Positions 8,863 through 53,994 of a stretch of DNA of 64,000 nucleotides are shown one piece after another. The stretch's first letter is position 1, and each line of letters begins with the position of its first letter. The DNA lies in contig KV908589.1 of assembly GCA_002005505.1 (NCBI GenBank), positions 62,001 through 126,000 of the forward strand. Direction: 5' to 3'. Position numbers and translations under genes: made by a program. The notes beneath the pieces are model-generated. The model ran no database searches. It saw nothing but the letters and a program-made list of their open reading frames with translations, and had not been told where the DNA came from. The DNA is from Botryococcus braunii (taxonomy: Eukaryota; Chlorophyta; Trebouxiophyceae).

Positions 8863-8880
8863 AATATTCATGTAGACTTG

Positions 8881-9251: not shown

Positions 9252-9258
9252 CCATGAA

Positions 9259-12200: not shown

Positions 12201-14559
12201 CCCCTTGCACGCATGAGGTTTTCCTAATTTTGCTCAGCATAGCAGGAGACAAGTGGCCAAATCTTCTATGCCATAAGTCAACAGACATGGAAGCAAGAGG
12301 GTTGGCTTCAGGCTGTGTGTGTTCTACTGGATTAGCAAACGTCACTCGTTTGGCAGGAATAGACTTATCAATCAGCCACCAATAAGGGTGAGCGTGGTAA
12401 GCCGCAACAATGGGGGTACCCTCTGAGTCTTTAATTATGCAAGTGAGACCATTGAGGGACACAAACAGACCATCTCTGTATGCTTTTCCAACGGAAAACA
12501 GGCGCTTCTGCGTAGAAGGAACATGTTTAACATTGAACAGTTGCATGGTACTGCCATTTTCTAAATGCACAGTGACAGTGCCCTCCCCCAGGATATGTTC
12601 CTTCCTACCATTTGCCACAGTGACGTATTGAGGATCAGTGTATGCAACATAATCCTCCATACAAGACATGTCAGAACAAATATGGTCGGTCGCACCGGAG
12701 TCGACCAACCAACCAGGAAGAGGAGGGGTTGCGCCGAACTCATGAGTTTGCACAACGTTTGCCTGAGACTTGTTCTTTGGGCAGTACGTCCTGATATGGC
12801 CTGCCTCCCCACATAGGAAGCATATAGGTACAGGCCTCCCTGGGGTTTGGACTGCAGCCCTTCCTCCCTGCACAGCTTCCTTGACAACTGCAGTGTCAGC
12901 TTCCACAGCACCTTCTACAACATTCAAGGATGTTGAAGTTCTAGTGAACTGGGGCCTATTGCCCTGAGGGTGTGGGTTGAAGTTCCTATGTAGTTTAGGA
13001 ACTTCTGCTGTGGTCGCTTTAGGTGTATGTCCCTTTGCGGCACGCAACCGGATAAACGTAAGTTCTAGGTTGCCCTGCAGTCTACCAATATCCGGGTTAT
13101 CTTGGACAAGATTGAACTGTGTGTTCTTGTCTTGTTCATATTCAGGAGTCAAACCTGCAAGTATGACATAGCATAGAGCCAGATCTGTGTAATTTTGCCC
13201 AAAACTTCTCAATGACATGACAAGTTTCCTAGCTCTGCTGACATACAAGGAGGGTTTTTCTCCTGGATTCATCTTCAGAGTGTGAAGCTCTTGGAATAGA
13301 GCCATCACCAGCCCTCGACCTCGTACTGTGAAGATGTTGATTAAACATGACCAGATACCATATGCAGATTTCTGATCACTGACCTCAATTTGGTACGGCT
13401 CTATGAGTGAACCAGTGAGTAGAGTTTGGGCTACCCAATCGTGGGGATACTGACTACAGTCAGAGTGTATACACCATTCAACCCCAGCAGACAACAAGAT
13501 TGCATGAGCAAACCGGGACCAAGCTACCCAATTGTGATCGTTTAATTTCATAACGTCGAGCTTGGGCAACAGTTTGGAAATTATTCCTTGCAACGCATCG
13601 GAAGAGTTTGAAGCGTTACCCATAGGGAATGGATTTGGGAGGCCAGAACCTGATCCCCCCGGTCCCCCTGGCCATCCCGGGCCACCTGGGCCACCTGGTC
13701 CACCCCCTGGAGGCCACCCACCACCTGGTGGTCCGCCCCATGTAGGAGGAACGCCGGGAACGTTTGGATTAAATTCACCTGGTGGCCAACCTGGTCCACC
13801 CGGTGGTCCCCCACCTGGCCCCCCACCACCACCACCTCCACCAGGCAGGCCTGGTGGTGCTGAGGTCCAAGGGAATACCAAGGATGCCTGACTAGTGTTA
13901 TTTATACTAGCATTGGCATTCATTGTACTTACTAGATTTGGATCAGGAGCAGACATGGTAACACCAGGTTGTGGAATAGGCATAGATGCAATGCCTAGAC
14001 TACTAGTAGGTACATTTTCTGCAGCAACTGGTGCACTCGTATCGGGGAATGTATCATCAAAGGTTTGTGTATGAGACATTTCCCTGAAAAAATTCATGGG
14101 CCTGACTCCACTCCCAATGGGTGTTCCTAGAGGTGGTCTATAGGATAATGAACTCCTACCCATGGAGCGTGGTATGCCATATGTAACATCCATAGGGACA
14201 AATGTTCTAGGAGTGGGTCTGGACTGAGAGGGTGACCAACCTAAGGGCACCGCTGCACCTCTGTGTGGTGGGGCAGAGTACCTGACCCCATCCCTGCTGA
14301 AAGACTGCTCCATATCGCTGAAGTTACCGTGGTCACTTTGTTGAACGTGTGGGGCAGCCCTCCCGGAGAGTGGAGGTGTAACTGCTGCCCCTTGTCTAGA
14401 CAGATTTGGTGCCTGCACAGTTTCAAACAAAGGATTCTCGTCAATGGTAACGTGATCTGCAAACCTATCGTCTTCAACAACGTTGAAGCGATTGCGAAAA
14501 ATATTGCCAGATCTGGTTTTAGAAGGGTAGGTCCCACCTGGACCAAGCCCTGAACTCAT
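9259..14559 (-). CDS. Cop-B Gag-Pol polyprotein, intact
   Basis: A single frame of 1766 codons runs from the ATG at 14559. Numbering from that ATG: a low-complexity Gly/Pro segment at about 235-305, a copia Gag domain at about 320-520, and a zinc knuckle CFLCGEAGHIRTYC at 580-593. The protease motif VDSGATDH has its aspartate at 620. The integrase zinc site is H764, H769, C804, C807, and the catalytic triad is D834 (HMDVMGP), D897 (RTDGGTEF) and E931 (SNGKVERLNR). An acidic linker (EEEEDFEPESDDEPD) is near 1091-1105. RT has LDISTAFLHGKL and LVYVDDILVAS (YVDD 1449-1452). RNase H has DSDYAGEVDGRRSTSG and ends SNLADMFTKALP. All catalytic residues I can check are present and there is no stop or frameshift. 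It can encode everything needed for its own retrotransposition. In-frame codons run upstream to 14583 but lack an ATG. Confidence 0.96.
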   Translation of the reverse strand: MSSGLGPGGTYPSKTRSGNIFRNRFNVVEDDRFADHVTIDENPLFETVQAPNLSRQGAAVTPPLSGRAAPHVQQSDHGNFSDMEQSFSRDGVRYSAPPHRGAAVPLGWSPSQSRPTPRTFVPMDVTYGIPRSMGRSSLSYRPPLGTPIGSGVRPMNFFREMSHTQTFDDTFPDTSAPVAAENVPTSSLGIASMPIPQPGVTMSAPDPNLVSTMNANASINNTSQASLVFPWTSAPPGLPGGGGGGGGPGGGPPGGPGWPPGEFNPNVPGVPPTWGGPPGGGWPPGGGPGGPGGPGWPGGPGGSGSGLPNPFPMGNASNSSDALQGIISKLLPKLDVMKLNDHNWVAWSRFAHAILLSAGVEWCIHSDCSQYPHDWVAQTLLTGSLIEPYQIEVSDQKSAYGIWSCLINIFTVRGRGLVMALFQELHTLKMNPGEKPSLYVSRARKLVMSLRSFGQNYTDLALCYVILAGLTPEYEQDKNTQFNLVQDNPDIGRLQGNLELTFIRLRAAKGHTPKATTAEVPKLHRNFNPHPQGNRPQFTRTSTSLNVVEGAVEADTAVVKEAVQGGRAAVQTPGRPVPICFLCGEAGHIRTYCPKNKSQANVVQTHEFGATPPLPGWLVDSGATDHICSDMSCMEDYVAYTDPQYVTVANGRKEHILGEGTVTVHLENGSTMQLFNVKHVPSTQKRLFSVGKAYRDGLFVSLNGLTCIIKDSEGTPIVAAYHAHPYWWLIDKSIPAKRVTFANPVEHTQPEANPLASMSVDLWHRRFGHLSPAMLSKIRKTSCVQGVVLPAGNLTSLIGMNGMCEACIDGKMSSAPHKPTGSTVSNRMELVHMDVMGPIRPVTPEGEEYALNIIDERSDFSVTVLLKKKSDASSEAILVLKTLSLSTELPVKAIRTDGGTEFLGLDRFCRKHGILHQVTPPYSHQSNGKVERLNRTLQEKARAMLADSELPRKYWGEAMLTACHVRNLSPTNLHDKTPYELMYGVVPNVSYLRVFGSKCKVLTPKTLRTGKFHPVCQTGVFLGYQGDSKQYRVLIDGKVTVHRGADCKCFEVAPDTQISAAQPYGAVNHRTHASSDLDFTYGVSSPLSAMEEEEDFEPESDDEPDLEYVPDVSDMEFSGNRSAVADAWDGEVDQQDTFPNEARGEQKGGAGHGDHLIPSRSTSPPGARPLPKGVPQVSTHNSVEGEVSGSRTEKVVEFDFSGSKIPVTPAGLFAGRYPVRKRYTHTTQAHFADTSVQGVIQIEANTVYAEPNTYLEAINSPEAEKWITAMLEEMGSLNALETWDLVQVSEQQAKRALPVRWVFKVKLTESGDVEKFKARLVAKGFKQVYGVDYTEVYAPVSRHSTLRYLLSMAVEQQMHLHQLDISTAFLHGKLQETVYVQQPPGFYEGGPNTVCKLNKALYGLKQAPKAWYDTMSKVLLDDGFVIADSDPSLFIARKLGDDDVYVLVYVDDILVASKNMDKVTAVKALLNAHFAVKDLGPAKYFLGMSVTQSFDNNGVLQSIKLSNEKLTAEIITSFHGEESLKPKALPMDTAFQLSAHVGDPLPVGNRYRELVGGIMYLANTVRPDIAFAANHLARFAVSPTSHHYRAGISVLKYLLGSKDFGLLWDKGKNGITGFVDSDYAGEVDGRRSTSGHVFLSGTAAILWGSKLQKVTALSTVEAEFVSMCSGVQEALWISKLVSDFGGVPAPIRIYTDNTGALANIKGIPISPRTKHIGVRYHRVRQEVEQGSISPFYVESASNLADMFTKALPKVQFQKLRAGIGME
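13630..13836 (-). other. Low-complexity Gly/Pro segment of Cop-B Gag
   Basis: The Gag N-terminal region contains a run of eight glycines followed by PGG, PGGP and WPPG repeats, about 70 residues in all. No fold is predicted from this. It may be a flexible, phase-separating or RNA-associating tail; that role is inference. Confidence 0.7.
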
Positions 14560-14898
14560 GTTTAAACGTAATGAAGGGTTCAATCAGTGTAAAAGCACGA
14601 GTTTGCCTCCCATTAACGGAAAACAAAACACCAAACTCAACACAATCCAAAAGCTCTGTGTGACGTGGCTTGGATATATGTGAATTAACACGGATCCTCC
14701 ACCACACTATGCTCCAACAGCCACGAAGTAAATAGTAGTGTAATGCAAGTGATAAATGCAGTAAGCAAAATAATCAAAAAGCACGACATTAATTTACTTC
14801 CCTTCCAAAATTTGTACTCCTCACACAGGCAGATGATGTCCGATCGGGACTAAGATCGCCTCTACTTGCGATCCCATACGACGGGATCGCCGATACCA
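14560..14898 (-). promoter_or_regulatory. Cop-B leader and primer-binding site
   Basis: The site adjoins the 5' LTR end: on the element strand TGGTATCGGCGA (14887-14898) follows TATCTACA. TGG is the expected start of a site pairing with a tRNA 3' CCA end. The same 12 bases are the primer-binding site of Gyp-2 and Gyp-3. About 330 bp of leader without a gene separate it from the Gag ATG. Confidence 0.85.
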
Positions 14899-15962
14899 TG
14901 TAGATAAAACAACATGAAATAAACAATTACTTCAACAATTACTTCAAACCTTGCTGACGGAACACCATCGTCAGTAAGGATAATGCCTGCATGCGCACCG
15001 ACACCAGGACTTCAAACAAGCCTTATTGAAGGCACATAACAACAAGACGTGAGCCGTGGTCATATAGAAAGCCAACGAACTTTGTTACAATGTGTGTGTC
15101 TTGTAATTGTAGCCTATAGCTAAGCAAGCTATAATGAAGGTGATTACCTGCATGCGCACCGACACCAGGACTTCAAACAAGCCTTATTGAAGGCACATAA
15201 CAACAAGACGTGAGCCGTGGTCATATAGAAAGCCAACGAACTGTTGACTTCAAGAGACTGGCCCTCTTAAATACCATGACAAGCTACGTAGCCGTACCCG
15301 AGTCAGCCCAAGTACGTCTACCTTGTACATGGTGTACAATACACCGGACTTCGTGTTCGAATTTGTAAGTCCGAACATCCGGGTCCTGATTCGGACCAGA
15401 ACACTCATGTTTCTAGTCACGATCGTCGGTGCTGGCTACTAAATGGCTAATCAAGGGGAAAGGACCGTGAATGCATACGGTCAACCTTTCGGTTACCCCT
15501 TGGGTTTGCCCACTCATATTTCTATCTCCTGGAGGTGCTAGTTGACTTCCAGAAGTGGCACAACACATTGAGGCTTATGAATTGCCAAGATCTAAGTGCT
15601 TAGTCAATTCCAGGCCTCAGCATTTCATCATAAGACTAGACAAATGATAAGGTCATACTGGAGTTCATGAGAGAACACCAAGATCAGCGTCCAAACAGCT
15701 TCTATACAAGTATTCACGCATGGAATGCCTTAGAAACTGTCTGAGCACCCGCAGACACTCTTAAAGAGTACATAGACACTCTTGAAGATTACAAATAAAC
15801 AGCAGGTACGTATCTCGCATTGCTCAGTAAGTACAAACCACGTGGCAGATGAGGTCGGCATGGCCTAGATACTTTGTTCAATGATCCTTGTCCCCAAAGT
15901 CACATGTCAATTTATTGGATAATGACAATTAGGGTCGCATCTGCAATTAGATTATCACAACA
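14899..15962 (-). repeat. Cop-B 5' LTR (1064 bp)
   Basis: It is the partner of 7776-8840. On the element strand it starts at 15962 with TGTTGTGATAATC and ends at 14899 with TTTTATCTACA, immediately before the primer-binding site. It should hold the promoter, but no core promoter motif is clear enough to call. Confidence 0.96.
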
Positions 15963-19003: not shown

Positions 19004-19703
19004 TGTTGAGTTCTGAACATTATTATTGAATGCCTTGTGCTTTAAGTGATCTTCAGGTGTGCACTATTAGGATATGGGTCCGTTGAGAACATAAGGCACC
19101 TTAAGACACGTTAGGTTGTGGACGATTTCGAACATAAGGTACAATTTGATCTAGATTACGCGTTAGTGTGAAAGGACTATTAAAGCTGCGATCACCGCAT
19201 AGTCGAGCAACTGGTTTGGAAAGATACTGGGCACATAAGGATGCGAGTCTTGTTCATGCAGTTGCATGTGCCTAAAGAGCAGACAGTCGTCGAGGACTGT
19301 AGCTGGAGAGGCACGAACTTACGACCTGTCTGCTTGCTTACAGGTGCGGTGACGCAGGGTGTGTATTGGTAATGTGTTCATGGTTGATTGCTTGCTTGTA
19401 AGTGAACCATCTTAGTGCACAATTAAGTCTCCCAAACAGCTAAGGGACGGAGTCTTGATTGAGTATAGGAAGGTACCTGCTTTCAGCCGTCAGGAGCTTA
19501 TCCGTGTGTAGATGCTCATTGACAGATCAACGTGTAACGAAACTGGTTTGGAAAGATACTGGGCACATAAGGATGCCAGTCTTGTTCATGCAGTTGCATG
19601 TGCCTAAAGAGCAGACAGTCGTCGAGGACTGTAGCTGGAGAGGCACGAACTTACGACATGTCTGCTTGCTTACAGGATACGCCACTGCCCATAACCTTTT
19701 ACA
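19004..19703 (+). repeat. Cop-C 5' LTR (start uncertain)
   Basis: The right edge is firm: TTTTACA is followed directly by the primer-binding site GGTTATGGGCCCACGCC. The left edge is placed at TGTTGAGTTC because it resembles the Cop-E start TGTTGAATG and leaves about 205 bp before the internal repeat, as in the other families (202-235 bp). No second LTR is available for checking. Confidence 0.65.
19209..19675 (+). repeat. Intra-LTR direct repeat of Cop-C (2 x 135 bp)
   Basis: Copies at 19209-19343 and 19541-19675 are spaced by 332 bp and nearly identical. Both begin AACTGGTTTGG and end CTTGCTTACAG. Copy 1 is followed by GTGCGG and copy 2 by GATACGCC. The copy-2 end, TCTGCTTGCTTACAG|G, is a good splice-acceptor match. 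Confidence 0.93.
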
Positions 19704-19720
19704 GGTTATGGGCCCACGCC
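19687..19720 (+). promoter_or_regulatory. Cop-C primer-binding site within a perfect hairpin
   Basis: GGTTATGGGCCCACGCC from 19704 is complementary to the anticodon region of eukaryotic initiator tRNA-Met (contains GGGCCCAUAACC), not to its 3' end. The last bases of the LTR, GCCCATAACC (19687-19696), pair perfectly with GGTTATGGGC (19704-19713) around a 7-base loop TTTTACA. In RNA the LTR end could therefore mask the site. Confidence 0.85.
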
Positions 19721-23198: not shown

Positions 23199-23813
23199 TG
23201 TTATAATAGTGAAAGAACATTTGGTGCCTTTCCCTCAGAAGAGTAATAGTGGCCAGATCAGCTCGGATTAACCAGCAGGAACATTCATTAGAATGAGTAA
23301 TAGGTGGCAGAACCTAGGAGTTCTGCCAGAATCAATCTAGACCAATATCGCATAGATTAGGGAGAATGAGGTAATTGGACACGGTTTGCTAGAAAGGACT
23401 TATGACGCCGGCGTGCAAGGACGAGGCACTTGATTGGGACAGTAAAGGCACTTCGGGTGCTTATCTCTTAACTGTTGCCTATCAAGTCCTCATTCACATT
23501 CGGTCACTGCTTGTTCTCCAACACACAACAAGAGTGCCGACGAGCTAATCACCCTTCGTGCCCGGGTCATACAGGTAACCTGACGTTGAGTGACAGAAGC
23601 CTCATTGACAATTGGTTAGGAAGAGGTCTAGGTAATATTATTAGGTTGGTGCTAATGCTTTTGCTCATTGAACACTGGTAATGCAGACTATCGGTAGTTA
23701 CGTAGATTAAGTAGTTTGAATTACGGAGTGATGAGAGAAAGCAAGTAGCATTGTAATGACTTGATTGGGACAATAAAGGCACTTCGGGTGCTTATCTCTT
23801 AACTGTTGCCTAT
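23199..23813 (+). repeat. Cop-D 5' LTR, left part
   Basis: It starts TGTTATAATAG, right where Cop-C coding sequence stops. The phrase GCCTTTCCCTCAG...GAGTAATAGTGG near the start is shared with the Cop-A/Cop-G LTR. It is interrupted at 23813 (CCTAT) by Cop-E and resumes at 37314. The total length without the insertion is about 732 bp. Confidence 0.88.
23428..23813 (+). repeat. Intra-LTR direct repeat of Cop-D (2 x 147 bp, copy 2 split)
   Basis: Copy 1 is 23428-23574, ending GGGTCATACAG and followed by GTAACC. Copy 2 is 23759-23813 plus 37314-37405 (55 + 92 = 147 bp), ending GGGTCATACAG and followed by GAAACGCC. Cop-E landed inside copy 2, so copy 1 serves as the empty-site reference across GTTGCCTATCAAGTCC. 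Confidence 0.93.
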
Positions 23814-24692
23814 TGTTGAATGAATTGGTCAATACTGTACTTAGTGACATCCCCTGTCACATGCCATCAACAGCAGTGTAAACTATAGCCCCTATAGCCC
23901 TTTATGAACGGTATAGATCATACTCGTACCTCAATGACATAACACGTGACTTGTACGATATGCGTTCTCAATAGACATTACGTATGGTAGTACTTTAGGA
24001 TCCCTGCAGTCCGAGCCATCCCTGGGCAGCCCAGGAACGGCTCGGTACTTGTCCGAAGCATGTTGGTATCCTTGACCAACCTCAACTGTTGGAGAGTGCT
24101 GTGTGCTGTTCCTGGAAACGTTGTAGCGTGGACGGTTTTTCCCACAGGCTACGAACTGACGCTGCCGTCGTGCCATCACTGCAGGTGTGTTTAGGATTCT
24201 CAAAGTCGTTCCAGATATGATTGTGCTCAAACATTCAGACCAGTTAGATATTACTGCTGTGTGCATTGATGAGAGTGCATGACGAGAGCGCACTGAATGT
24301 TTGACCTCATTGAGACTTATGTTGAAGTCCACCATTGTGGCGGTAAGATAGTTTCACTGTACAAACATCACAAAGAGACCTTGCTGAGTTACTGATGAAC
24401 TATTATTGTATTCTAGTGACGTAAAGTAGACATCGCAAGGCCTCTTTGGTGCTGAACTCTGCTATCAGGCAAGGCGTAGTGTTACGTGGTCTTTAGCAAG
24501 AGTGAGAGCAGTTAACATCATTTGTAAAACTTGTCCGAAGCATGTTGGTATCCTTGACCAACCTCTACTGTTGGAGAGTGCTGTGTGCTGTTCCTGGAAA
24601 CGTTGTAGCGTGGACGGTTTTTCCCACAGGCTACGAACTGACGCTGCCGTCGTGCCATCACTGCAGGTGACGCCGCAAGCAGAAATGCTTGA
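23814..24692 (+). repeat. Cop-E 5' LTR (879 bp) with internal repeat
   Basis: It contains two 136-bp blocks at 24049-24184 and 24531-24666, spaced by exactly 482 bp. Both begin ACTTGTCCGAAGCATG and end CATCACTGCAG. The first is followed by GTGTGTTTAGG, the second by the 26-bp tail GTGACGCCGCAAGC...TTGA. The primer-binding site follows directly. Confidence 0.95.
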
Positions 24693-24965
24693 GGTTATGG
24701 GCCCACGCTTTCAAAGCTGAGCTTGCAGTGGCGCACGACAGATTTCCAGGGAGAAAAAGGGTTTCGGACCCTGCTTCGAGACTGCGGGCTTCACTGACGA
24801 GTGAGGTCTGGCCGTTCAAACATATCGAGCTAGTCACGTAAAATTATTCCTTCTGTAGTGCTGGAAGGAATTGTTGTACAGTAGCAACTGGGCTGGGAAA
24901 GCAGAAGTACTTCTGGGACTTATCAACTCAGTGTCAGAGCTAGGAAGAAGTGCTTCCAGGGGAAG
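24693..24965 (+). promoter_or_regulatory. Cop-E primer-binding site and leader
   Basis: GGTTATGGGCCCACGC (24693-24708) abuts the LTR and is complementary to the initiator tRNA-Met anticodon region. The leader continues to 24965, is interrupted by Gyp-2 after GGAAG, and resumes at 31226. Cop-F has the same leader uninterrupted at 48517-48824. Confidence 0.85.
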
Positions 24966-25455
24966 TGTAGTGAGGTGCCGCGTCAGCGCGACGCGTCTCA
25001 CGTCGCCTGCGCGTAGGATGTGCGCGTAAGCATAATGTTCGTAATGGTGTGCGCGTAGTTCATGTTTCATCGTGCCCTTTGGGATACGAGTAGATCTCGT
25101 TGTCCTTGTGTGTAGGAAAATGACTGTAATATCCTAGTGGGTCTCCTCTCGTCATCCATATCGTTATGCTCGCGAGAGCATCTCGTAGAGGGACGACGTA
25201 GCCGGATCCGCGCATAGGTGGACTAGGAACTCGGGTGGTTATCATTGTCTTTGGGTTTTCTGCAACAAGCGGGGCATCTAGAAAGTCCTATATTGTTCAT
25301 TATATATTGTTCTTTGGAGACTCGGACGACCTGCGTGAGGAGGGCTGCGAACTTGTAACGGATTGGAACTTCGATTTCTACCTTCGGTGTCACCCTTGCC
25401 TGATACCCTTGCTTAGCTTGTTATAAATCTTAGTTACACGTCTCACTTCGTTAAA
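24966..25455 (+). repeat. Gyp-2 5' LTR (490 bp)
   Basis: It starts TGTAGTGAGG and ends CTTCGTTAAA. The differences from the 3' LTR are clustered in the first 120 bp. A palindromic CTCGCGAGAGCAT element lies in the middle. Confidence 0.95.
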
Positions 25456-25456
25456 T

Positions 25457-25468
25457 TGGTATCGGCGA
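25457..25468 (+). promoter_or_regulatory. Gyp-2 primer-binding site
   Basis: TGGTATCGGCGA follows the LTR after a one-base spacer. The first seven bases match the usual plant initiator-Met site, but GGCGA does not. The same 12 bases occur in Gyp-3 and Cop-B. Confidence 0.85.
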
Positions 25469-25534
25469 GGCGGTTAGAGCCTCGAACCGAAGGGAGACGT
25501 AGGGAAGGTTGTAATTGCATTGTTCCATTGCAAC

Positions 25535-26743
25535 ATGATGGCGGTTAAACGGAAAGGAAACAAGTACTCCGGTCTCCCCCTTAAAGAGAAAGAAATTTTG
25601 GAAGGTTTGGAAAAGGAAGGTATTGAAGTCGATGATCTTTTGGAAGAGTCCGAAACGGAATTGCAATTGGCCCCATCGCCCAAACCGACCACACCCAAAA
25701 CGAAACCCAAACCCACTCCTTTGAAGACACCCTTGAAGAAAAATAAGACTAAATCCCTAATTCTACGGTTATTGAAGCGGATTGAGGCCTTGGAGGGAGA
25801 ACGAGCATCCAAGCGGACGTCATCCACCACTAACGTCGTGCGTGTGCCTACACCAGCCATGTTTACAGGAAAAAGAGGAAGCTTCCAATTCTTTGCTAGT
25901 AAGGTGGAATCATATGTGAACATTTCAAATGTGTCAAGGGACAAGTGGGTGGCAGTCGCGCTGCAATGTATGGAGGAGCGACCTACAAAGGTTTGGGGGA
26001 CATACCTCAAAAGAAAGGAAAGGGAAGGAGGTCAAACAGAGCCAACATGGGAAGACTTTAAAAATTTTATGGGAAATCGATACGACTCTACAGATTTGGT
26101 TATGGCTGCCCGGCAAAAATTAGACCATGTTTATCAAGGGCAAGAAAGCGTTGAAAGATACATAGAAAGGTTTATTTCCTTGTTGAGTGATGTAGAAACC
26201 GAATATGACATCTGCGAAAATGATAAAATATATATGTTCCTCAAAGGCCTGAATGCTCCTATTAGAGTTGCTTGCACAGTTAACCCTCAAACTGGTGTCA
26301 GGTTCACAAGCCTCGACTCATTGTGCACTTATGTGGTGCAATATGAAAGCAACTTAAAATCAGGGGGGATGCTGAGGGGACAGGAAGGAAGGAAGGTTCT
26401 CAACGTTGTGAAGAGGACTCCAACAAGCACGCCGGCATACTTTCCGGGATTCACCCAGGGGCCTGTGCTTGGAGCCGTCGGACACAACGTTGGTGGGAAG
26501 TTAGATTCTCGGACAAGCGTCCCCTCCGAGCGCCAGTGTTATTTCTGCAAAAACTTTGGTCACGAGCAATGGCAATGTCAGGCCAAGCGGGACTACTTGC
26601 AAAGGAAGAGCAGGCGCGACAGTCAATTGCCCCCACCTCCTCCTTTCCCCTCTAATCAAGCTCGAGGTGGGCAGTGGAAGGGCCGTAGTGGCCGGGGAGC
26701 ACATTGGAAGGGAAAAGGGCCGGGGCATAATCCTCAAAAGTAA
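25535..26743 (+). CDS. Gyp-2 Gag
   Basis: An intact 402-codon frame runs from ATG 25535; five upstream in-frame codons lack an ATG. The N-terminal third is charged and proline/lysine-rich. A gypsy Gag domain spans about residues 100-270 (motifs KWVAVALQCMEERP and QESVERYIERF). A zinc knuckle CYFCKNFGHEQWQC is near 26538-26579, with a basic Gly-rich tail. It would assemble the virus-like particle and bind genomic RNA. It ends TAA 12 bp before the Pol ATG, in a different frame. Gyp-3 has the frameshifted counterpart. As no lesion is seen here, the protein could be made if the LTR is active. Confidence 0.88.
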   Translation: MMAVKRKGNKYSGLPLKEKEILEGLEKEGIEVDDLLEESETELQLAPSPKPTTPKTKPKPTPLKTPLKKNKTKSLILRLLKRIEALEGERASKRTSSTTNVVRVPTPAMFTGKRGSFQFFASKVESYVNISNVSRDKWVAVALQCMEERPTKVWGTYLKRKEREGGQTEPTWEDFKNFMGNRYDSTDLVMAARQKLDHVYQGQESVERYIERFISLLSDVETEYDICENDKIYMFLKGLNAPIRVACTVNPQTGVRFTSLDSLCTYVVQYESNLKSGGMLRGQEGRKVLNVVKRTPTSTPAYFPGFTQGPVLGAVGHNVGGKLDSRTSVPSERQCYFCKNFGHEQWQCQAKRDYLQRKSRRDSQLPPPPPFPSNQARGGQWKGRSGRGAHWKGKGPGHNPQK

Positions 26744-26754
26744 ATTCTGAAGCC

Positions 26755-29700
26755 ATGGATGCCACTTGCTTGCATGTTTTGCACTCTCTTGTGGCCTCCA
26801 ATTTGGGAAAGGAAGGGGTGAACCTTGTGGTGCCAAATGTTAGGAAGGCTGAATCTGAGATTTCCAAGTTTTTATGGGAACAAAGGTGCAACCCGTCCCT
26901 CACTTGTTGTTTCATTGTGGGAAGGAAAACTTGGAAAAGTAAGAGTCTCTATGCTCACCGTATGCAAGGAAGGATTGTGGAAGTGTATTCATGAAGGAAG
27001 GGACAGGCGGTGGACATGAATGGTCAAACTAGTGTATACCCATTCTCTTTTGTATGTTGTGTGGTTCCCCCAGGACCCACACTCACCATGGGAAGTGTTA
27101 CTACTGACTCCCCGCTAGCTATGACCTTTCCGGCGAATGTTAAGGGGAAAATCCTTTCAGTGTTGTTTGATAGTGGGGCATCTCATTCGTTTATTAAAAG
27201 TGATACTTTGCAAGGGCTAGGGGTGCGATACAAACCCGCATGCATATCCGTGACTCTTGCTGATGGAAGTGTGTCCGATACGAAAGGAACGGTAGATGTG
27301 TCGTTTACACTCAAGCCTGGTATAACTTCCCGTCACAACTTCATTGTAAGCCCTGCCATGATTGATGGGGTAGACATGATTTTGGGGCAGGACTGGATGG
27401 AAGAAAGAGGAGTCTCAATTGATTTTTGTGTAAAGGCTGCTCAATTTAGACATAATGGGAAGTGGGTCACCCTAAAACACGCAAATTCATCGTTGCCAGT
27501 GGGGCCAAAACTTGTTTGGGGTTTACAAGCACAAGAGAGGAAGGAAGGAAGGAAGGATAGGAATGGAAAAGGATGGAAGGGTCAAGATGTTTGGAAGGTT
27601 TGTTTGTATACTGTGCTTGTGAATGAGCAGGCTGAACTGGTGGACATCACCGGGGAGGACGCCTCAAGTGAGGCCGACCTGGCGGACACCGACAAATCTA
27701 TGGACGACACCCCCGTCGTCACAAAACCCCCCAGTAGTACCGGTATGACTTTCACTCATCAAATAAATGACATGTTGGAAGGCAAGCCACAGGCCCTGAA
27801 AGACTTGTTACTTGCAAATGAGGACTTGTTTGCAAAACAACTCCCGGGGTTACCCCCGGAGCGGGAAGTGTTTCACACAATAAATTTGGAAGAAGGACAT
27901 CGGCCCCCCAATAGGCCCGCGTACCGTCTTGCTCCAAGTGAGCTTGCGGAATGCGAAAAAACGGTTGATGAGTTGTTACAATTGGGATTGATCAGGCCAA
28001 GTTGCTCACCATTTGCATCACCTGTTTTGTTTGTTAGAAAGAAGGATGGAAGTTTGCGTATGGTAATAGACTACCGTCCCCTGAATAAAATTACCATCTC
28101 GGATAGGTACCCTCTCCCCAGAATTGACGATCTGTTGGATAGGCTTAAGGGAGCCAAGGTGTTTTCGAGCTTGGACTTGTTGTCTGGGTACCATCAAGTG
28201 CGACTTCGCAAGGAGGATGTGCCTAAAACTGCCTTCAGGACCCCTTTTGGCTTGTACGAATTTCTTGTACTTCCCTTTGGTTTGACCAACGCGCCCGCGA
28301 CATTTCAACGGCTTATGAATGAGGTTTTTCACGACTTTATAAGGGAAGGCTTTGTGGTTGTATACTTGGATGATGTGCTCATTTATTGCAAAACGGAAGA
28401 GGAACACCTTCTGCAGTTGGACAGAGTTTTCACCCGTCTACGCGAACATCAACTCCTGGTAAAACTTGTCAAATGCTCTTTCTTTGAGAAACAATTGAAA
28501 TACTTGGGACACATCATTGGGGAAAATGGGTTGGAAGTGGATATGGATAAAGTCAAGGTGGTGCAGGAGTGGCCTACGCCCACAAACGTAACGGAAGTTA
28601 GGAGGTTTCTTGGGTTGTCTAATTACTTTCGAAAGTTTATTCAGAACTACAGTATCCTGGCAACCCCATTGACAGCTCTCTCTGGGGCAAAAGCACCTTG
28701 GAAGTGGGGACAGGAACAACAGGAAGCATTTGACAACATAAAGGAAGCTTTGGTAAGTGCCCCTATCTTAACACTACGTCGGCCATTTAAGGTAGTGTGC
28801 GATGCATGCGATTACGGCGTGGGAGCTGTGCTATTTCAAGATGGGAAGGTTTGTGCGTATTTCAGTAAAAAGTTGGGAGCAAGCGAGAGGAACTACAGTG
28901 CCACGGAACGGGAGTTATTGGCTGTAGTGTATGCTCTCACGGAATGGAGATGTTATTTGTTAGGTAAGCCAGTAACGGTGGTGACGGATCACAAGTGCAA
29001 CACCTTCTTGGGTCAACAGGTGGGGCTTAGTCCTCGGAGGGCTCGGTGGGCCGAGCGCCTGCAGGAGTTTGAGATTGAATGGGTATGGGAGCCGGGCAAG
29101 ACCAACATTGCGGATCCGCTCTCCAGGTGTCACTTCACTCAACACCCTGGACCTGGGGGGAGGGACAATGGGGCTGCTGTGGCCGGGGCTGCCCTCCGGC
29201 GCAAGCGTCGGCGCACCAGTCCGGACTCCCTCACCCCCTCCAGCCGGGATGTCGAGGGTACCCTCACAGCTCGGGTCCGCAAGGTCCCCAAGGTCACGCT
29301 CCCGGGGCCCGCTCACGAGACCCCAAGCTCCCTCGGCACGATGGAGCAAATCGGGTTGGCCAGCCCGAGTGAGCTTACCCGCGAGACCGATGGGTACGAA
29401 TCCCTACTTGGCAAACTTGAGAAGGCTTACACATACGATCCGTGGTTGGCAGCGCGTGCGAATAGAAGGAAGGTTAGTCTAAAGGGAGGCTTTTGGGAGA
29501 GGAATGGACGGAAATATGTTCCTGCATTGTTTGAGGAAAGGAAAGATGGGGAACTTGTCGTGGAGAATCTACGACGTGGAATTTTGTAAGCTTTACATGA
29601 TCCACCTCATGTTGGTCACCCTGGAGTAACTCGCATGTACGAGCTTGTCACAAGGGAATGGTATTGGCCGGGAATGTATGAGGATGTCACAGCCTATGTT

Positions 29701-30174
29701 GCTCATTGTGACTCTTGTCAACGAGTCAAGGCTCGGAATACCTTGCCTGCTGGTCTTCTTCACCCCTTACAAATACCAGCAAGGAAGTGGCAAAGTGTGT
29801 CTATGGACTTTATTACCAACCTCCCACAGACCCCAAGTGGAAATGATGCTATTTGATTTGTCGTGGATAGGCTTAACAAGTGTGCTCATTTTGCTGCTAC
29901 AACAATGAATGCTGATGCTTATACTCTAGCACAATTGTTAAGGACATGGGTGTGGATGTATCGTGGATCCCGGGTGTGGTGGCATTGTGGATCACAAGCC
30001 ACTCACTGGCGAACGCGGCCGCACTCTGGACGATCCGAACGAGCCAAATGAGGATAGCTGGAAATAACTTGCACAGGTCACGCGTTGTTGCCACAAGAAA
30101 GTGGAAGAATACAGAGAGAGTCACGGGCTCCCGCCATTGCCTCCCAAGGGCACGACTCCTAGGGTCCACCCTTA
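26755..30174 (+). pseudogene. Gyp-2 Pol with stops and integrase deletion
   Basis: Pol opens at ATG 26755 in a frame different from Gag. A TGA at 26992-26994 separates the N-terminal extension from protease (DSGASHS, aspartate near 27168). RT has YLDD near 28363, and RNase H has VCDACDYG near 28797. Further stops are TAA at 29587-29589 (codon GAA in Gyp-1) and TGA at 29854-29856 (TGG in Gyp-1), between the integrase zinc region and the core. After WMYRG (about 29960) the sequence jumps into the chromodomain coding region (GGCATTGTGGATCACAAGCC), which is itself degraded. The second aspartate and the glutamate of the integrase triad are absent. The last stop and the deletion are identical in Gyp-3. 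Confidence 0.88.
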
Positions 30175-30730
30175 GGGTCCCGTCGACCGGTTGGCCCTCC
30201 TTGGAGGGGTCTCTCTGTATGGCCATATGGACTTTGGATAGGCTAGGGTAAGGCTGCCTTACCCGGTAGGGTTGACCATGGGTCCCTTACCTGGATAGAT
30301 TTTTGTGCACATTAGGTGTATGGCCTTTTCACTTCACTACCACACCTGATCAATATGGTGCAATACTGGCGTAATACTGGACTATATGTGGAAATTGGAC
30401 TCCCCTTGGACTCTGGACTTTTGGACATCTGGACTTTTAGCTCTGCCCTTGTGTCTCATTTTGGCTGTTCATCATGTGGACTTTCGTTTTTCTTTCAGTG
30501 TTTTGTCTTTTGTTCTGTTAGTCATGCCTGATCCTTGTTCTTATTGCATTATGGTGGGGACCCCGATACGCAGCATTCGGCTGGGGTCTGGCAACACGGG
30601 AGGCGGGTTGCCCGTAGGTCTAAGTCTGAGTCTCCGCATGTTGGAAGGTCTTGTTCCTTTGTTTGTCTTGTCTGTTTGTTGTTGCGCTCTGCCTTCTGCG
30701 CGGGGACGCACAGGAATAAGGGGGGGAGTA
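30175..30730 (+). other. Gyp-2 3' untranslated region and polypurine tract
   Basis: About 555 bp without a gene, homologous to 3659-4182 and to 39783-40340 (reverse). GGAATAAGGGGGGGAG immediately precedes the LTR. Confidence 0.75.
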
Positions 30731-31220
30731 TGTAGTGAGGTGCCGCGTCAGCGCGACGCGTCTCACGTCCCCTGCGCATTGGATGTGCGCGTAAGCATAA
30801 TGTTCGTAATGGTGTGCGCGTAGTTCATGTTTCTTCGTGCCCTTTGGGATACGAGTAGATCTCGTTGTCCTTGTGTGTAGGAAAATGACTGTAATATCCT
30901 AGTGGGTCTCCTCTCGTCATCCATATCGTTATGCTCGCGAGAGCATCTCGTAGAGGGACGACGTAGCCGGATCCGCGCATAGGTGGACTAGGAACTCGGG
31001 TGGTTATCATTGTCTTTGGGTTTTCTGCAACAAGCGGGGCATCTAGAAAGTCCTATATTGTTCATTATATATTGTTCTTTGGAGACTCGGACGACCTGCG
31101 TGAGGAGGGCTGCGAACTTGTAACGGATTGGAACTTCGATTTCTACCTTCGGTGTCACCCTTGCCTGATACCCTTGCTTAGCTTGTTATAAATCTTAGTT
31201 ACACGTCTCACTTCGTTAAA
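30731..31220 (+). repeat. Gyp-2 3' LTR (490 bp)
   Basis: It matches 24966-25455 with about four differences and is followed by the target duplication GGAAG. Confidence 0.95.
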
Positions 31221-31287
31221 GGAAGTCATCTAAGGCTTGGAGTGAAGAACTGGCTTGATCATCAAAACTAGAAGCAGACAAGTGATC

Positions 31288-34200
31288 ATGAAAACGAGAA
31301 GTAAGCGCACTGCAACGGAGTCTGAATCAGCTGGGTCTGGCTCCTCCATCAGTGCATCACCCAGCCAGACAGCAAACTCCACTGCGCAGAGTGGAGAGAT
31401 GTGCATCGCAATGACGAAAACCGGTGGCGTCGTCACCACGAATGTCAAATGTCCAGTGACTCTGGACAGAGAGGGAGTGGAATTTCCACTCTGGGATCTG
31501 GCATATGTGGCAGCCTGTGGCCTCAAAAGGTGCAAGGCAGCCATTGAAGCTCCAATGCCAGACACAGAGGAGAATGCAGCAGCGCTCCTAATGCTGATTG
31601 AGAGCGTCCCCAAGGCGTGGGGTGCCAAGCTGGCTGCAATGCAAGTGGCAGCCAATGCCTACCAGTGGGTTCGAGAGCGTTTTACTGGAGGGGCAGACCA
31701 GGAGGTAACAGCACGCTGGCTGGAGCTCCTACACACCAGCATGGGAGAGACAGAAACGTTGGAGGACTACTAAAACAGGAAGGTGGCACTCTTCCATGCG
31801 CTCAAGCGAAATGGGCACTCCATCATGGAGAGAGAAGCCAAGCTGGCAATCATCAAGGGCCTGCCAGAGGAAGCGAAGGAGACTGGGATGTTCTCCTCAT
31901 CTGCTGGGAAGGATCTGGAGGGACTGTGGGAGATCATCTCCACCACAGCCAAGGGACTGGGCTTCAACGACCAGGTCCCCAGAGTCACCCCTGTGGCCAG
32001 GGCAGCCATCACACCAGCCTACTCCACCACACCAGGGACTGCAAGCCCACGGGAGACCCAAGCTGGAGGCCAGGGGGGCCAAGCTTCATCGACCAAGGTG
32101 GAGGGACGGGACCGGCGTGACAACAGGCGTTGCCGCTACTGCAACAAGCTAGGCCATTTTGAGAGGAACTGCCTCAAGAAGGAGGCGGACGAGAAGATGC
32201 AACAAAACCTGCAGCAAGTGATGGCTGCAATGGCCAATCTGCTTCCGCAATTTCAAAATCAAGTGTCGGCTGCAGTGGCTCGACCTCCGGAGGGCAGCGG
32301 GAACGGCAACAACTTTTTCCCCGGGGGATATCCACCACCCTCTGGTGTGTCTGCCATGATTTCTCTGAATGTCTTAACACCAACACGCGTCATGCTAGAA
32401 GCGAGAAGTTTTCTGGTGGACAGTGGAGCCACCATCCACCTAGTCAATGATCTGTCCCTGCTACATTCCCCCACCCTGCACAGAAATCCCATTCCTTTGC
32501 ATATGGCTACATCAGATGCCACGGGACAGATAATTGCAACTGGTTCCCTGTGCTTGAGCAGTGCAGAACAGCAACCCCTGTGGCTTCACAATGTGCATTG
32601 TGTTCCTTCAGCTACAGCTAATCTGATTTCAGTGACAGCTGCTATACGTGATGGGGCTAGTTTTGTGACAGACAGTGTGGGAAGTTACACTGGGATGCGT
32701 GGCGCTCAAAACTGGTCTTGTTCAGTTGCACAGAGAAATGGCCTGTATTTCTTGCAGAAGGTCAGTCCAGTCAGAAACCCTGTCTCTGTGTTTGTTAACA
32801 CAGCCAGAGCACCAGTCGCTCATGATTGCAGATTGAGAGCACTGTGGCACAGTAGACTGGGGCACCCAGGGGAGGTTAATATGAGGCGACTGCAGTCTGA
32901 AGATTTGGTCCTGGGCATCCCTGTATCTCTCTCCCCTTGCGCAAACTGTCACTCTTCATGTGAAGCGTGCATTCAAGGAAAGCACAGTCGTCCCCCTTTT
33001 GGAACCAGTTCTTGAGCAGCCACTGAGCCCCTTGAGAGAATTCATTTGGACACAGTTGGCCCCATCTCCCCTACAGCTATTACTGGGGAGCGCTTCTTTG
33101 TCACGATTGTGGATGAGGCTACGCACTACGTCATAGCCCTGGCAGTAAAAACCAAGGATGCAATCAGTAGTGCAGTCAGAGACCTCCTGATTTTTTGGCA
33201 GAGGCAGTTGAACCGCTCTGTTAAGTGCATTCGTACTGACAGGGGGACAGAATTCCTCAACAGTACATTGAAGGGTTTCTGTACGCAGGAGGGAATTAAA
33301 TTGGAGACCTCTGCAGCATACACGCCTCAGCAAAATGGCGTTGCTGAACGGATGAACCGAACAATCAAGGAGAAGGCCAGAACACTCATGTTGCATGCAG
33401 CTGCCAAACAGTCACTCTGGAAGGAAGCAGTGGAGACAGCCTGCATCCTGTACAATATGGGACCTGTGACTGGACGTGACAAGACGCGTTATGAAGCCTT
33501 CCATGGGGTAAAGCCCGATGTATCCCTGCTCAGGACTTTTGGCTGTCTAGCACATGTGCACATACCTGATAACCAAAGGGGTGTGTTTGAGTCTAAGACC
33601 TCCCCTGGTCTCTTCACAGGGTATTCCAGTGTGTCAAAGGCATATAGAATTTATATGGGAAACGGGATTTGGAAAGAAAGCAGAGACGTCACCTTTCTGG
33701 AGCACTTAAGGGGCGCAGACAGAGTGGGGCTTAGCACCATGTCTTCTGTGAGTCCAAATGCAGTCCAGCAGCCCTTTGCCTTGCCTTTTGTACAACAGGA
33801 GGGCCAGCAGTCCTTGGGTCAGTTGTCTTTTTGGGACTCAGATGATCCTGAGCCTCTCTGCAACCGAGAGGTCAACGTGCAGCAGTCCGGACCTGACTCC
33901 CCTGTGCAACCACCCCCTGCCCAACTACCCCATGTGCAATCAACCCCTGTGAGAATTCTGAGACTACAAGTGTCAACGTGGACGGGGAGCCCACTTCCTC
34001 GGAGCTGAGCCATACGCAGTCCGGCCACAGCTGGTCCGTACTCGGACACATGGAGAACCTGGCGCGAGGAGGCCAGGAGACCAAGTCACACCTGCAACGT
34101 TTGAATAATGTGCAAGAATGTGTTCGAATGGAAGTTGGGGCCATGGGTGTCCGAGGGCAAGACGGGCTGACCCGGCAGCAACGGTATGATCAGAGAGTAG

Positions 34201-36404
34201 CAGCACGTGAGGCTGCAGCTGAGGTCACTGTGGAACATGATGGAGATGTGAGTGATGGAGAGAATAGGAGAATGTCAGAGGCCATTTGCCCAGGGGAAGC
34301 AACGGAAGCTCAGCCTAATGGACAGGACTTGGCCAGGCTGGAGGGCATGTCTGATCATGTAAGCGCTGAGAGTGAGGCAAGAGAGGTCAGTTTGGAGATT
34401 TCCAATCAGACACTTGATGGACAAAGGGAGTCTTCAGATGGCCAGGCTCTGCGTGCTTGTGAGGGACACACTGGGGAGTCTCAGGTGTGCTGTGAGAGTA
34501 CAAGCGTGGATGAGAGAGACACCACTGCAGAGTGTCGCACAGTGCCAGATTATGCTGCGCCTGTGAGTGATGAGTGCATTTGGGACATGATGAGTGATGT
34601 AAGACCCAGATTGAGTGGAGCAGCATGTGAATCCTCCAAGGAGCGAAAGCTGCAGACACCTGCAGAGTGGGAGAGAGTAAGAGAGGTGTGTAACGCAGTA
34701 ACCTCGAGCGAAAGAGTAGTGGAAGCACCTGCGTGTGAGCCTAGAGAGGATAGCCATGTTGTGCATGATCACAATCTGAATCCTGTAAAGGGTCAGATAC
34801 CTGGGGTGAGGTGGTCCAAGGTGCCAGTCCCTGGAAACCTCAGGGAGGCGCAAAGATCCCCTCAGTGGGAATTCTGGCGCCAGGCAATGCAAGAGGAGCA
34901 AGATTCTCTTGATGCGCACGAGGTGATGGGGTACGTTGAGAGACCCAGGGGACACAAGGTGATCCCTGTGCATTGGATCTTCTCTGTGAAGACTGATGCA
35001 CATGGGAACGTGTTGAGATTTAAGGCTTGGCTTGTAGCCCAGGGCTGTAGACAGATTCCTGGAGTTGATGTAGATGAGGTCTTTGCACCTACAAGTAGCT
35101 ATGGGTCCAGGAGGACTTTGCTAGCAACTGCTGCAGCAAAGAACATGGAAATTCACCAGGTGGATATAAAGACCGCCTTTTTGAATGGTGAATTAGAGGA
35201 GGAGGTGTATGTGACACAGCCTCCTAGGTTTGATAATGGCAACCCCAACATTGTGTGCAGACTGCGTAAGGCCCTTTATGGCCTGAAGCAGGCTCCCAGG
35301 GCTTGGCACAAGACCCTGAATGAGAAGCTGCTAAGTATGGGATATGAAGTGTGTAAGAGTGATGCGGGAGTTTACATAAAGAGACACGAGGATGGGGAGC
35401 TGTCATACATGCTTGTGTATGTTGATGATCTTTTGATTGTGGCAATGGGTGCGGAAGAGATAGAATGGGTAAAAAAGGAGCTGTTGGCAAGCTTCAAGAT
35501 TCATGACCTCGGTAAAGTCAAGGATTTCTTGGGCTGCCAGATCCTGAGAGATAGAGAGAATCGGTGCTTATCACTGAGCTGCGTGCCTAAGATTGATGCA
35601 CTGTGTGAGAAGTTTGGGGTGAGTGCTGAGTCACGTACAGTCGATACTCCCATGAGTAAAGACTTTGTGATGTCAGGGATGCCGCAGGTTACAGTGGGTG
35701 AGACCAGCTTTGGGTCTGGGACTCCAGTGCCTCCCGGGCATAGATATTGTGAGCTTGTTGGGTCTCTGTTGTATATTGCTAATACAACTCGACCTGATAT
35801 AGCTCAGGCTGTGGGTGTTCTGTCCCGTTACCGGAACGCTCCCACCACTGCCCACATGAATGAGGGCTTGATGGTATTGAGGTATCTTCAGTCTACTCGA
35901 GAGTGTGTCTTAGTGCTGGGAGGGAAAGGGCCTGTGTTAGAAGGTCATGTTGATGCAGATTATGCTGGCGATATTGACAGCAGGCATTCTACCTCGGGGT
36001 ATGTGCTATCAGTGTTTGGCAGTGTTGTGGTCTGGGGTAGTAAGAAGCAACACTCAGTTGCTACCTCCACTGTGGAGGCAGAATTCATGGCAACCAGTCT
36101 GGCTATTAAGGAGCTTAACTGGCTGCGTGGGTTCATGGAGGAAATCGGAACTCCTCCTTGGTCAGTGAAGCTATACTGTGACAATCAGGGGTGCATTGCT
36201 AACCTGAAAAACCCACTGTATAGCAGGTATACTAAGCACATTGCAGTGTGCTTCCACTTTGCACGTGAAGCTATTGCAAAGGGGCAGGTTACACTCTGCT
36301 ATGTGGAGTCTGCAAGGAACAAGGCAGACATGCTGACAAAGCCTCTCGCTCGCCCTGTCTTCCAGGTGCACAGGCGAGGGTTTGGACTTGTGAAGATGAC
36401 ATAG
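31288..36404 (+). pseudogene. Cop-E Gag-Pol, three or more lesions
   Basis: The first ATG of Cop-F has mutated to ATC, leaving 31288 as the likely start. The order is Gag (zinc knuckle CRYCNKLGHFERNC near 32130), protease (VDSGATIH near 32418), integrase (HSRLGHPG; HLDTVGP near 33050; RTDRGTEF near 33238; NGVAERMNR near 33340), a 300-residue linker, RT (LVYVDDLLIVA near 35415) and RNase H (DADYAGDIDSRHSTSG near 35955). Lesions relative to Cop-F are a TAA at 31771-31773 (TAC in Cop-F), a TGA at 33013-33015 (AGA in Cop-F) and a one-base loss in a C-run near 33898 that moves the frame. From about 33978 to 36404 the frame is open through RT and RNase H. It was recently active by LTR similarity but is now dead. 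Confidence 0.92.
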
Positions 36405-36414
36405 GTGAAAGGGT

Positions 36415-36429
36415 GCTGTCAAGGGGAAG
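36415..36429 (+). other. Cop-E polypurine tract
   Basis: TGTCAAGGGGAAG sits directly before the 3' LTR start TGTTGAATG. The core AAGGGGAAG is shared with Cop-A, Cop-F and Cop-G. Confidence 0.75.
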
Positions 36430-37308
36430 TGTTGAATGAATTGGTCAATACCTTCCTTAGTGACATCCCCTGTCACATGCCATCAACAGCAGTGTAAACT
36501 ATAGCCTTTATAGCCCTTTATGAACGGTATAGATCATACTCGTACCTCAATGACATAACACGTGACTTGTACGATATGCGTTCTCAATAGACATTACGTA
36601 TGGTAGTACTTTAGGATCCCTGCAGTCCGAGCCATCCCTGGGCAGCCCAGGAACGGCTCGGTACTTGTCCGAAGCATGTTGGTATCCTTGACCAACCTCT
36701 ACTGTTGGAGAGTGCTGTGTGCTGTTCCTGGAAACGTTGTAGCGTGGACGGTTTTTCCCACAGGCTACGAACTGACGCTGCCGTCGTGCCATCACTGCAG
36801 GTGTGTTTAGGATTCTCAAAGTCGTTCCAGATATGATTGTGCTCAAACATTCAGACCAGTTAGATATTACTGCTGTGTGCATTGATGAGAGTGCATGACG
36901 AGAGCGCACTGAATGTTTGACCTCATTGAGACTTATGTTGAAGTCCACCGTTGTGGCGGTAAGATAGTTTCACTGTACAAACATCACAAAGAGACCTTGC
37001 TGAGTTACTGAAGAACTATTATTGTATTCTAGTGACGTAAAGTAGACATCGCAAGGCCTCTTTGGTGCTGAACTCTGCTATCAGGCAAGGCGTAGTGTTA
37101 CGTGGTCTTTAGCAAGAGTGAGAGCAGTTAACATGATTTGTAAAACTTGTCCGAAGCATGTTGGTATCCTTGACCAACCTCTACTGTTGGAGAGTGCTGT
37201 GTGCTGTTCCTGGAAACGTTGTAGCATGGACGGTTTTTCCCACAGGCTACGAACTGACGCTGCCGTCGTGCCATCACTGCAGGTGACGCCGCAAGCAGAA
37301 ATGCTTGA
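36430..37308 (+). repeat. Cop-E 3' LTR (879 bp)
   Basis: It is the same length as the 5' LTR and carries both 136-bp internal blocks. It ends ATGCTTGA followed by the target duplication CCTAT, which fixes the LTR end and shows that the 26-bp tail after CAG belongs to the LTR. Confidence 0.95.
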
Positions 37309-37313
37309 CCTAT

Positions 37314-37430
37314 CAAGTCCTCATTCACATTCGGTCACTGCTTGTTCTCCAACACACAACAAGAGTGCCGACGAGCTAATCACCCTTCGTGCCCGGGTCA
37401 TACAGGAAACGCCACGCTCAGAATTGTTCA
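37314..37430 (+). repeat. Cop-D 5' LTR, right part
   Basis: It continues copy 2 of the internal repeat from 23813, ends GAATTGTTCA at 37430, and is followed at once by the primer-binding site GGTTATGGGCCCACC (37431-37445). Confidence 0.9.
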
Positions 37431-48119: not shown

Positions 48120-48516
48120 TGTTGAATGAATTGGTCAATACTGTACTTAGTGACATCCCCTGTCACATGCCATCAACAGCAGTGTAAACTATAGCCTTTA
48201 TAGCCCTTTATGAATGGTATAGATCTTACTCGTACCTCAATGACATAACACGTGACTTGTACGATATGCGTTCTCAATAGACATTACGTATGGTAGTACT
48301 TTAGGATCCCTGCAGTCCGAGCCATCCCTGGGCAGCCCAGGAACGGCTCGGTACTTGTCCGAAGCATGTTGGTATCCTTGACCAACCTCTACTGTTGGAG
48401 AGTGCTGTGTGCTGTTCCTGGAAACGTTGTAGCGTGGACGGTTTTTCCCACAGGCTACGAACTGACGCTGCCGTCGTGCCATCACTGCAGGTGACGCCGC
48501 AAGCAGAAATGCTTGA
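48120..48516 (+). repeat. Cop-F 5' LTR (397 bp, single block)
   Basis: It matches Cop-E from TGTTGAATG through the first 136-bp block to CACTGCAG, then jumps directly to the 26-bp tail GTGACGCCGC...TTGA. The 482 bp from GTGTGTTTAGG to the second CACTGCAG are absent. Confidence 0.95.
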
Positions 48517-53969: not shown

Positions 53970-53994
53970 GTGAAAGGGTGCTGTCAAGGGGAAG

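Follow-up and report, generated by a model that had tools for sequence, protein, structure and literature searches.

HIV-2 and SIV have a leader intron in R-U5, and foamy viruses are copied from unspliced RNA. Drosophila copia and Ty5 are primed by half of the tRNA-iMet, and UGUAA is the usual poly(A) signal of green algae. In the foamy virus LTR the splice donor precedes the poly(A) signal and, by way of U1 snRNP, contributes to the skipping of this signal in the 5' LTR, as described in PMC3694450. Functional spliceosomal introns are reported for the plant LTR elements Ogre, EVADE and BARE1 (PMC12786077), and retroviral R lengths of down to 15 nt, the MMTV value, are given in PMC12789967.

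The copia LTRs considered here come from a stretch of 64,000 nt of the Botryococcus braunii contig KV908589.1 (below, the window) and from further loci of the same genome. A block of sequence is present in them twice, and we consider it highly likely that such an LTR is composed of a leader exon, an intron that holds the second copy of the block, and a tail, with copy 2 being rewritten from the spliced copy 1. Five block pairs (families A–E, or Cop-A to Cop-E) had been reported in the initial annotation, and all of them are present, apart from small corrections of start and strand. The two copies match at 142/142 bases in Cop-A, 133/135 in Cop-C and 146/147 in Cop-D, and, for the blocks as originally delimited, at 96/96 in Cop-B and 135/136 in Cop-E. 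The borders described there are observed in all five families of the window, copy 1 running up to an AG that is followed by GT and copy 2 closing with AG; in random draws of border pairs for eight of the families, AG|GT together with AG was obtained in 153 of 160000 cases. The Cop-B block exists as annotated, and it lies on the minus strand and had been extended over the splice border by one shared G, the corrected copies being 8120-8026 and 7959-7865 (-). The Cop-E block also exists, and its true length is 138 bp with the start at 24047, two bases before the annotated one; in this LTR (window 24047-24666) block base 38 is A in copy 1 and T in copy 2. The features of the window are as follows (coordinates, strand, description).

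5723..6414, plus, Cop-A 3' LTR: copy 1 5925-6066, intron 6067-6388, copy 2 6247-6388, tail to 6414; TGTAA immediately before copy 2
7776..8840, minus, Cop-B 3' LTR (approximate bounds): copy 1 8120-8026, intron 8025-7865, copy 2 7959-7865
9262..14583, minus, Cop-B gag-pol frame: 1774 stop-free codons, integrase core ahead of RVT_2
14899..15962, minus, Cop-B 5' LTR (approximate bounds): copy 1 15242-15148, copy 2 15081-14987; followed by primer site TGGTATCGGCG; TATA box at -31
19209..19703, plus, Cop-C LTR, partial: copy 1 19209-19343, intron 19344-19675, copy 2 19541-19675, tail to 19703; primer site GGTTATGGGCCCA at 19704; TATA box at -31
23428..37430, plus, Cop-D LTR, partial: copy 1 23428-23574, donor 23575, copy 2 23759-23813 and 37314-37405, split by Cop-E element 1; primer site at 37431
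23814..24692, plus, Cop-E element 1, 5' LTR (879 bp): copy 1 24047-24184, intron 24185-24666, copy 2 24529-24666, tail to 24692; primer site 24693-24705
36430..37308, plus, Cop-E element 1, 3' LTR, same layout: copy 1 36663-36800, copy 2 37145-37282
48120..48516, plus, Cop-E element 2, 5' LTR (397 bp), no intron or second block: GAGAG target duplication at 48115-48119
53995..54391, plus, Cop-E element 2, 3' LTR, no intron: followed by GAGAG
60926..61389, minus, Cop-A second LTR, partial: copy 1 61389-61248, copy 2 61067-60926

Two general statements of the initial annotation had to be narrowed. Not every copia LTR of the window is doubled: the Cop-E element at 48120-54391 has neither a second block nor an intron in both its 397-bp LTRs. 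The blocks had also been described as unrelated between several families, and some of them are related, those of A, A2 and D being 65–70% alike and those of C and C2 75% (A2 and C2 are families from outside the window).

The elements have the organization of Ty1/copia, with LTR pairs, tRNA primer sites and 5-bp target duplications (GAGAG, CCTAT, AGAAG). The domain order is rve at 836-931, then RVT_2 at 1289-1526 in the Cop-B frame (9262-14583, minus strand), and rve in 50136-52172, then RVT_2 in 52176-53966 in Cop-E element 2. The insertion of Cop-E element 1 is flanked by CCTAT at 23809-23813 and 37309-37313. The Cop-B element seems young; its protein has 1774 codons with no stop, and a 99% identical protein over 76% of its length is found in a JGI source, which suggests that the alga has also been sampled elsewhere. 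Beside the Cop-B LTR there is a 200-bp tandem duplication (94%) at 8859-9261, which does not have the splice layout. A CTTCC variant of U3 is present in the 3' LTRs of the neighbouring Cop-E elements (36430, 53995) and absent from both 5' LTRs; such sharing of 3' LTRs is unexplained by standard reverse transcription and possibly reflects gene conversion between the neighbours.

The genome searched was the 176-Mb assembly of 989 contigs that contains the window. Domains that bind chlorophyll a/b are encoded in it in separated pieces (two such genes were read), which points to a photosynthetic and probably green alga as the host. A search with RVT_2 yielded 2658 candidates, 150 of them scored, and 20 loci of 10 kb were hand-picked for spread of scores. 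At least one double-block LTR is present in 19 of these 20 loci, not always belonging to the element that drew the locus in. No LTR pair was found in the twentieth, heavily masked locus (L011, with 2566 masked bases); an intronless LTR similar to family F is located about 1 kb outside it. Together with the window, hand sorting yields at least 11 families (A, A2, B, C, C2, D, E, F, G, H, and I), and GT...AG intron borders are present in 11 families. As a border test, we considered near-duplicates of 60–260 bp with at least 93% identity from the window and all loci. AG|GT at copy 1 and AG closing copy 2 are found in 67/92 of them, a few LTRs being counted twice where loci overlap. Nineteen of the remaining 25 come from families H and I, as exon 1 pairs or pieces, with the border at the donor of intron 1. 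Six of the 92 do not conform: L013 contributes a GGGATCAA satellite, the window the 200-bp tandem at 8859-9261, L029 a partial copy of family I, and two loci (L019, the same as L030, and L021) three family G rows with one donor base lost. As a control, four gypsy LTRs (490, 490, 453, and 453 bp) from two elements of one family within the window were examined, and no direct internal repeat of 16 bp or longer was found. Satellites of the GGGATCAA type are located near an F LTR (L013, 8431-8803, minus strand) and inside the tail after copy 2 of an H LTR (L017, 1308-1400, minus strand). A protein search for relatives produced 13 proteins, one at 99% and four at 44–60%, with the DNA context absent, and two scans of viral contigs confirmed none.

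The origin of copy 2 can be read from families H and I, where copy 2 equals copy 1 minus a GT...AG intron. In family H, copy 1 contains an 86-bp intron (GTAAGC...TACAG) between exons 1 and 2, and in copy 2 these exons are joined directly, with identity at 201/201 bases (one LTR read). The 565-bp H stretch has 40 scored places of 105 candidates at 98–100%, 38 of them full length and two over positions 1–560. Similarly, copy 1 of family I carries a 108-bp intron (GTACGT...AATAG), and copy 2 is formed by the flanking exons joined, with 232–235 of 234–235 bases matching in 14 distinct LTRs. These LTRs correspond to 16 rows (L029 and L030 repeat L027 and L019), 11 without a mismatch and 5 with one or two, all picked by a pattern that required these borders and missed truncated or diverged family I pieces (L021, L023, and L028). 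Two variants of exon 2 in family I, an inserted A and a T at column 224 (in an LTR read twice), are each present in both copies of their own LTR.

A DNA duplication has no reason to lose a segment exactly at splice sites, while a reverse transcript of spliced RNA loses the intron automatically. The precise intron removal, observed at the level of DNA, thus demonstrates that in H and I copy 2 derives from the spliced copy 1 through RNA, as a reverse transcript of the spliced leader, and the direction is from copy 1 to copy 2, because copy 2 is devoid of the intron that copy 1 has. For the whole set of families, reverse transcription of the spliced leader appears to be the best answer to the question why the block is doubled. 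The leader intron that the initial annotation had suggested at these borders is supported by H and I, with one exception in the window. The LTRs of H and I do not follow the canonical U3-R-U5 scheme with a colinear leader and one uninterrupted R, and the same non-colinearity presumably applies to the single-intron families. One observation counts against the model: intron 1 of H and I lies wholly upstream of the likely RNA end in the 3' LTR, and so should be spliceable there, yet it persists. We can only guess that it is retained there owing to first-exon recognition near the cap. Among the matches listed, family I LTRs are recurrent, often a few kb apart, on contigs C38, C44, C119, C127, and C245, as well as C308, C340, C379, C523, and C684; perhaps this clustering on a limited set of contigs reflects a special chromosome region.

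Among 45 distinct single-intron LTRs, which were selected by the AG|GT rule, the two copies are identical in 38, the mean identity being 99.74% and the lowest, 93.75%. Between families, copy 1 identity is 75% (C and C2), 70% (A and A2) or lower, that is, families differ by at least 25%. At variable columns the two copies agree in 295/306 cells for family F (17 LTRs), with nine of the 11 disagreements coming from one degenerate LTR of L012, in 23/24 cells for A2, and in 17/20 cells for E (one LTR read twice); family G has no variable columns in this comparison. In the three elements that have a mismatch and had both LTRs read (L012, L020, and Cop-E element 1), each mismatch is confined to one of the two LTRs, which would be expected of later mutation.

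Immediately upstream of copy 2 the bases vary among the LTRs of each of the four families tested: C, CA, CAG, CAA or T in F, five T and three A in G, G or A (7:2) in E, and C or G (2:2) in A2. They are the same in both LTRs of an element. The junction base of G is the best-shared of only eight variable columns in 250; in F, variable at 55/259 columns, the length changes sit at the junction; in E and A2 junction variants track subgroup lines, as do other sites there. Hence the junction evidence is strong for G and for the length changes of F only. A strand-transfer junction with added bases would be a natural cause of this variation.

The block border, initiator and TATA box point to the first A of copy 1 as the probable transcription start. 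The base before this A is C or T in representatives of all 11 families; the block start was set at the A. The two copies begin to match at this A in A, B, C, C2, E, and G and, by sight, in D and I, and in H, 7/17 F rows and 2/4 A2 rows the preceding C is common to both copies as well. A perfect TATWWAW (7/7) is located at -30/-31 of copy 1 in B, C, F, and I, was not found before copy 1 in the other seven families, and precedes copy 2 in none of the 11, the background being 303/22000 random positions. In 10/11 families TGTAA occurs 1–3 nt ahead of copy 2 (beginning 6–8 nt before it), H having TGTAG at this position, while no TGTAA is found within 40 nt before copy 1 in any of the 11. The splice donor is upstream of TGTAA in 10/11 families.

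The primer site GGTTATGGGCCCA has 1906 occurrences in the genome, compared to one for the reversed control, and its complement lies in the anticodon arm of tRNA-Met (ARAGORN confirmed 2/3 pattern hits). The primer site of F, B, and H (of the latter, by its first bases) is TGGTATCGGC(G), matching the 3' end of the same tRNA. CAGG 20–30 nt upstream of GGTTATGGGCCCA yields 1745 matches for 1906 sites, and three at 31–41 nt, with possible double counts and with copies of a few families dominating; this shows a conserved acceptor-like site and is not evidence of the double block, as intronless LTRs carry CAGG too. The LTR tail of C, C2, and I contains GCCCATAACC, the reverse complement of GGTTATGGGC in the nearby primer site (window 19676-19716; L025; L027, about 9725-9765), and the RNA could form a 10-bp hairpin over its own primer site.

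The cycle that we propose would run as follows. Transcription would begin at the first A of copy 1, and in the 5' LTR splicing of the leader would remove everything between the last base of copy 1 and the tail, copy 2 included, giving an RNA that starts with copy 1, the tail and the primer site. In the 3' LTR the RNA would end just inside copy 2, the end probably being set by the preceding TGTAA; the acceptor would then be missing and the last intron would stay. At the 3' end of the RNA, the strong-stop cDNA of the spliced leader would anneal to the first bases of copy 2, and its extension would restore U3, copy 1, intron, copy 2, and tail. Rewriting of copy 2 from copy 1 would keep the copies alike, with borders at the start site and the splice donor; a cDNA landing on copy 1 instead would give an intronless LTR. 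That RNA with a spliced leader was copied is established by the sequences of H and I, and its role as the everyday genome RNA is our inference. For the single-intron families, the origin of copy 2, the start, the RNA end, the transfer onto copy 2, and the use of this route in most cycles are likewise inferred.

LTRs of the intronless kind do exist. Removal of the 482 bp between donor and acceptor from the 879-bp LTR gives the 397-bp LTR of Cop-E element 2. With an intronless Cop-E query, five of 40 scored places (415 candidates) are intronless: both LTRs of the window element, both LTRs of an element in contig C92, with the target duplication AGAAG and three private changes in common to the pair, and the 5' LTR of an element in C50 whose 3' LTR has the intron. 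In a comparison of 1300 internal bases (eight rows), the intronless window element groups with the intron-bearing element 1 by eight sites, and the C92 internal region is identical to an intron-bearing copy; as the two intronless elements belong to different subgroups, two losses are the simplest reading. A family I query (U3, both exons and tail) matches at least 29 places without both introns, end-to-end or nearly so at 93–100%, and at least 12 with an intron, one of which keeps intron 1 and is devoid of intron 2; with an F query, 10/40 scored places are intronless at 93–95% and 30/40 have the intron at 98–100%, both queries favouring intronless LTRs and 40 of 277–278 candidates being scored. 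The intron is clearly unnecessary in some lineages, judging from these LTRs, which also suggests that TGTAA before copy 2 is not the sole RNA end signal of intronless lineages; the number of near-identical intronless copies in family I points to an ability to spread. An intronless LTR is predicted if the cDNA lands on copy 1, yet the same sequence would arise by recombination between the copies; the C50 element and the I place with intron 1 only fit ordinary recombination.

On balance, we favour a distinct LTR cycle, in which the leader is spliced in nearly every round, the strand-transfer repeat is split, and the jump past the intron restores it. If the everyday RNA instead escaped splicing and had a long R that extends from copy 1 to within copy 2, the spliced leader being copied only occasionally, the layout would be preserved likewise, and the sequence data give no frequency for either route. 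This seems unlikely, however, as in F and A2 the copies differ at hardly any polymorphic site, the two variant sites in I exon 2 agree between copies, and the junction bases differ among close relatives in F and G; the copy agreement (F, A2, I) and the junction variation (F, G) indicate that rewriting was repeated within families. The jump could also be made in trans, with spliced-leader cDNA from one, perhaps subgenomic, RNA transferred onto another, unspliced genome RNA. Strand transfer between RNAs occurs in retroviruses, and the sequences are fitted equally well, but a second RNA is unneeded, since the leader-spliced RNA keeps the primer site and, presumably, the whole genome, and we consider such a jump improbable.

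Two simpler explanations were rejected. The high identity of the copies could be accounted for by plain tandem duplication with homogenization by gene conversion or unequal exchange, and the C50 element and one family I place do resemble exchange between copies; but this process cannot precisely delete a GT...AG intron from copy 2, which for families H and I contradicts it, and gives no reason for AG|GT and start-site borders over 11 families, leaving it a negligible probability. If transcription started at copy 2, copy 1 being mere U3, splicing would be unneeded, and the transcript would equal the spliced leader in sequence. Ordinary reads cannot tell the two apart for this very reason: a spliced read has the sequence of copy 2 and the LTR tail, and an aligner would place it without a junction. 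A start at copy 2 is nevertheless extremely improbable given the placement of perfect TATA boxes (before copy 1 in four families and before copy 2 in none), and it leaves AG|GT after copy 1, the identity of the copies, and intron 1 of H and I unexplained.

If the split-repeat cycle is true, copy 1 is the 5' repeat and copy 2 is the 3' repeat; the RNA end signal is spliced out at the 5' end and the acceptor is absent at the 3' end, so that two roles that conflict in ordinary LTRs become separated. In one alga this cycle would be shared by no fewer than 11 families, with primer sites of two kinds. Reverse transcription is expected to remove introns, and here the intron seems to survive, as the arrangement of the LTR puts it back. 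Such LTRs are a DNA record of splicing and strand transfer readable from assemblies, and an LTR with two copies differing by one GT...AG intron can be looked for in any genome. Among the titles and passages listed from open-licence full texts, searched mostly by narrow phrases, there is no description of an LTR intron rebuilt by copying.

As to the known systems, in HIV-2 and SIV splicing is possible within the 5' leader, as proposed for the algal LTRs, and we know of no spliced copy retained in their LTRs. Copying of the genome from an unspliced leader, as in foamy virus and HIV-2, is not what we find in H and I, where copy 2 comes from the spliced leader. Drosophila copia and Ty5 are alike in priming, the algal GGTTATGGGCCCA matching the anticodon arm of tRNA-Met; to our knowledge, their LTRs have no internal intron and no doubled block. 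In Ogre, EVADE, and BARE1, splicing is described in PMC12786077 as taking place in the body and producing subgenomic or short-GAG RNAs, and not as involving introns of the LTR. In MMTV a short 3' repeat suffices for the first-strand transfer, as would be needed at the start of copy 2, and R, as presented in PMC12789967, is single, uninterrupted and intron-free, unlike the proposed split repeat of the algal LTRs. The foamy virus LTR would resemble the algal one in having the donor ahead of the poly(A) signal if TGTAA has this function in the alga, and the abstract of PMC3694450 describes neither a doubled block nor an intron retained in the LTR. The algal cycle, if true, would be a new answer to the question how identical LTRs ignore the RNA end signal at one end and use it at the other.
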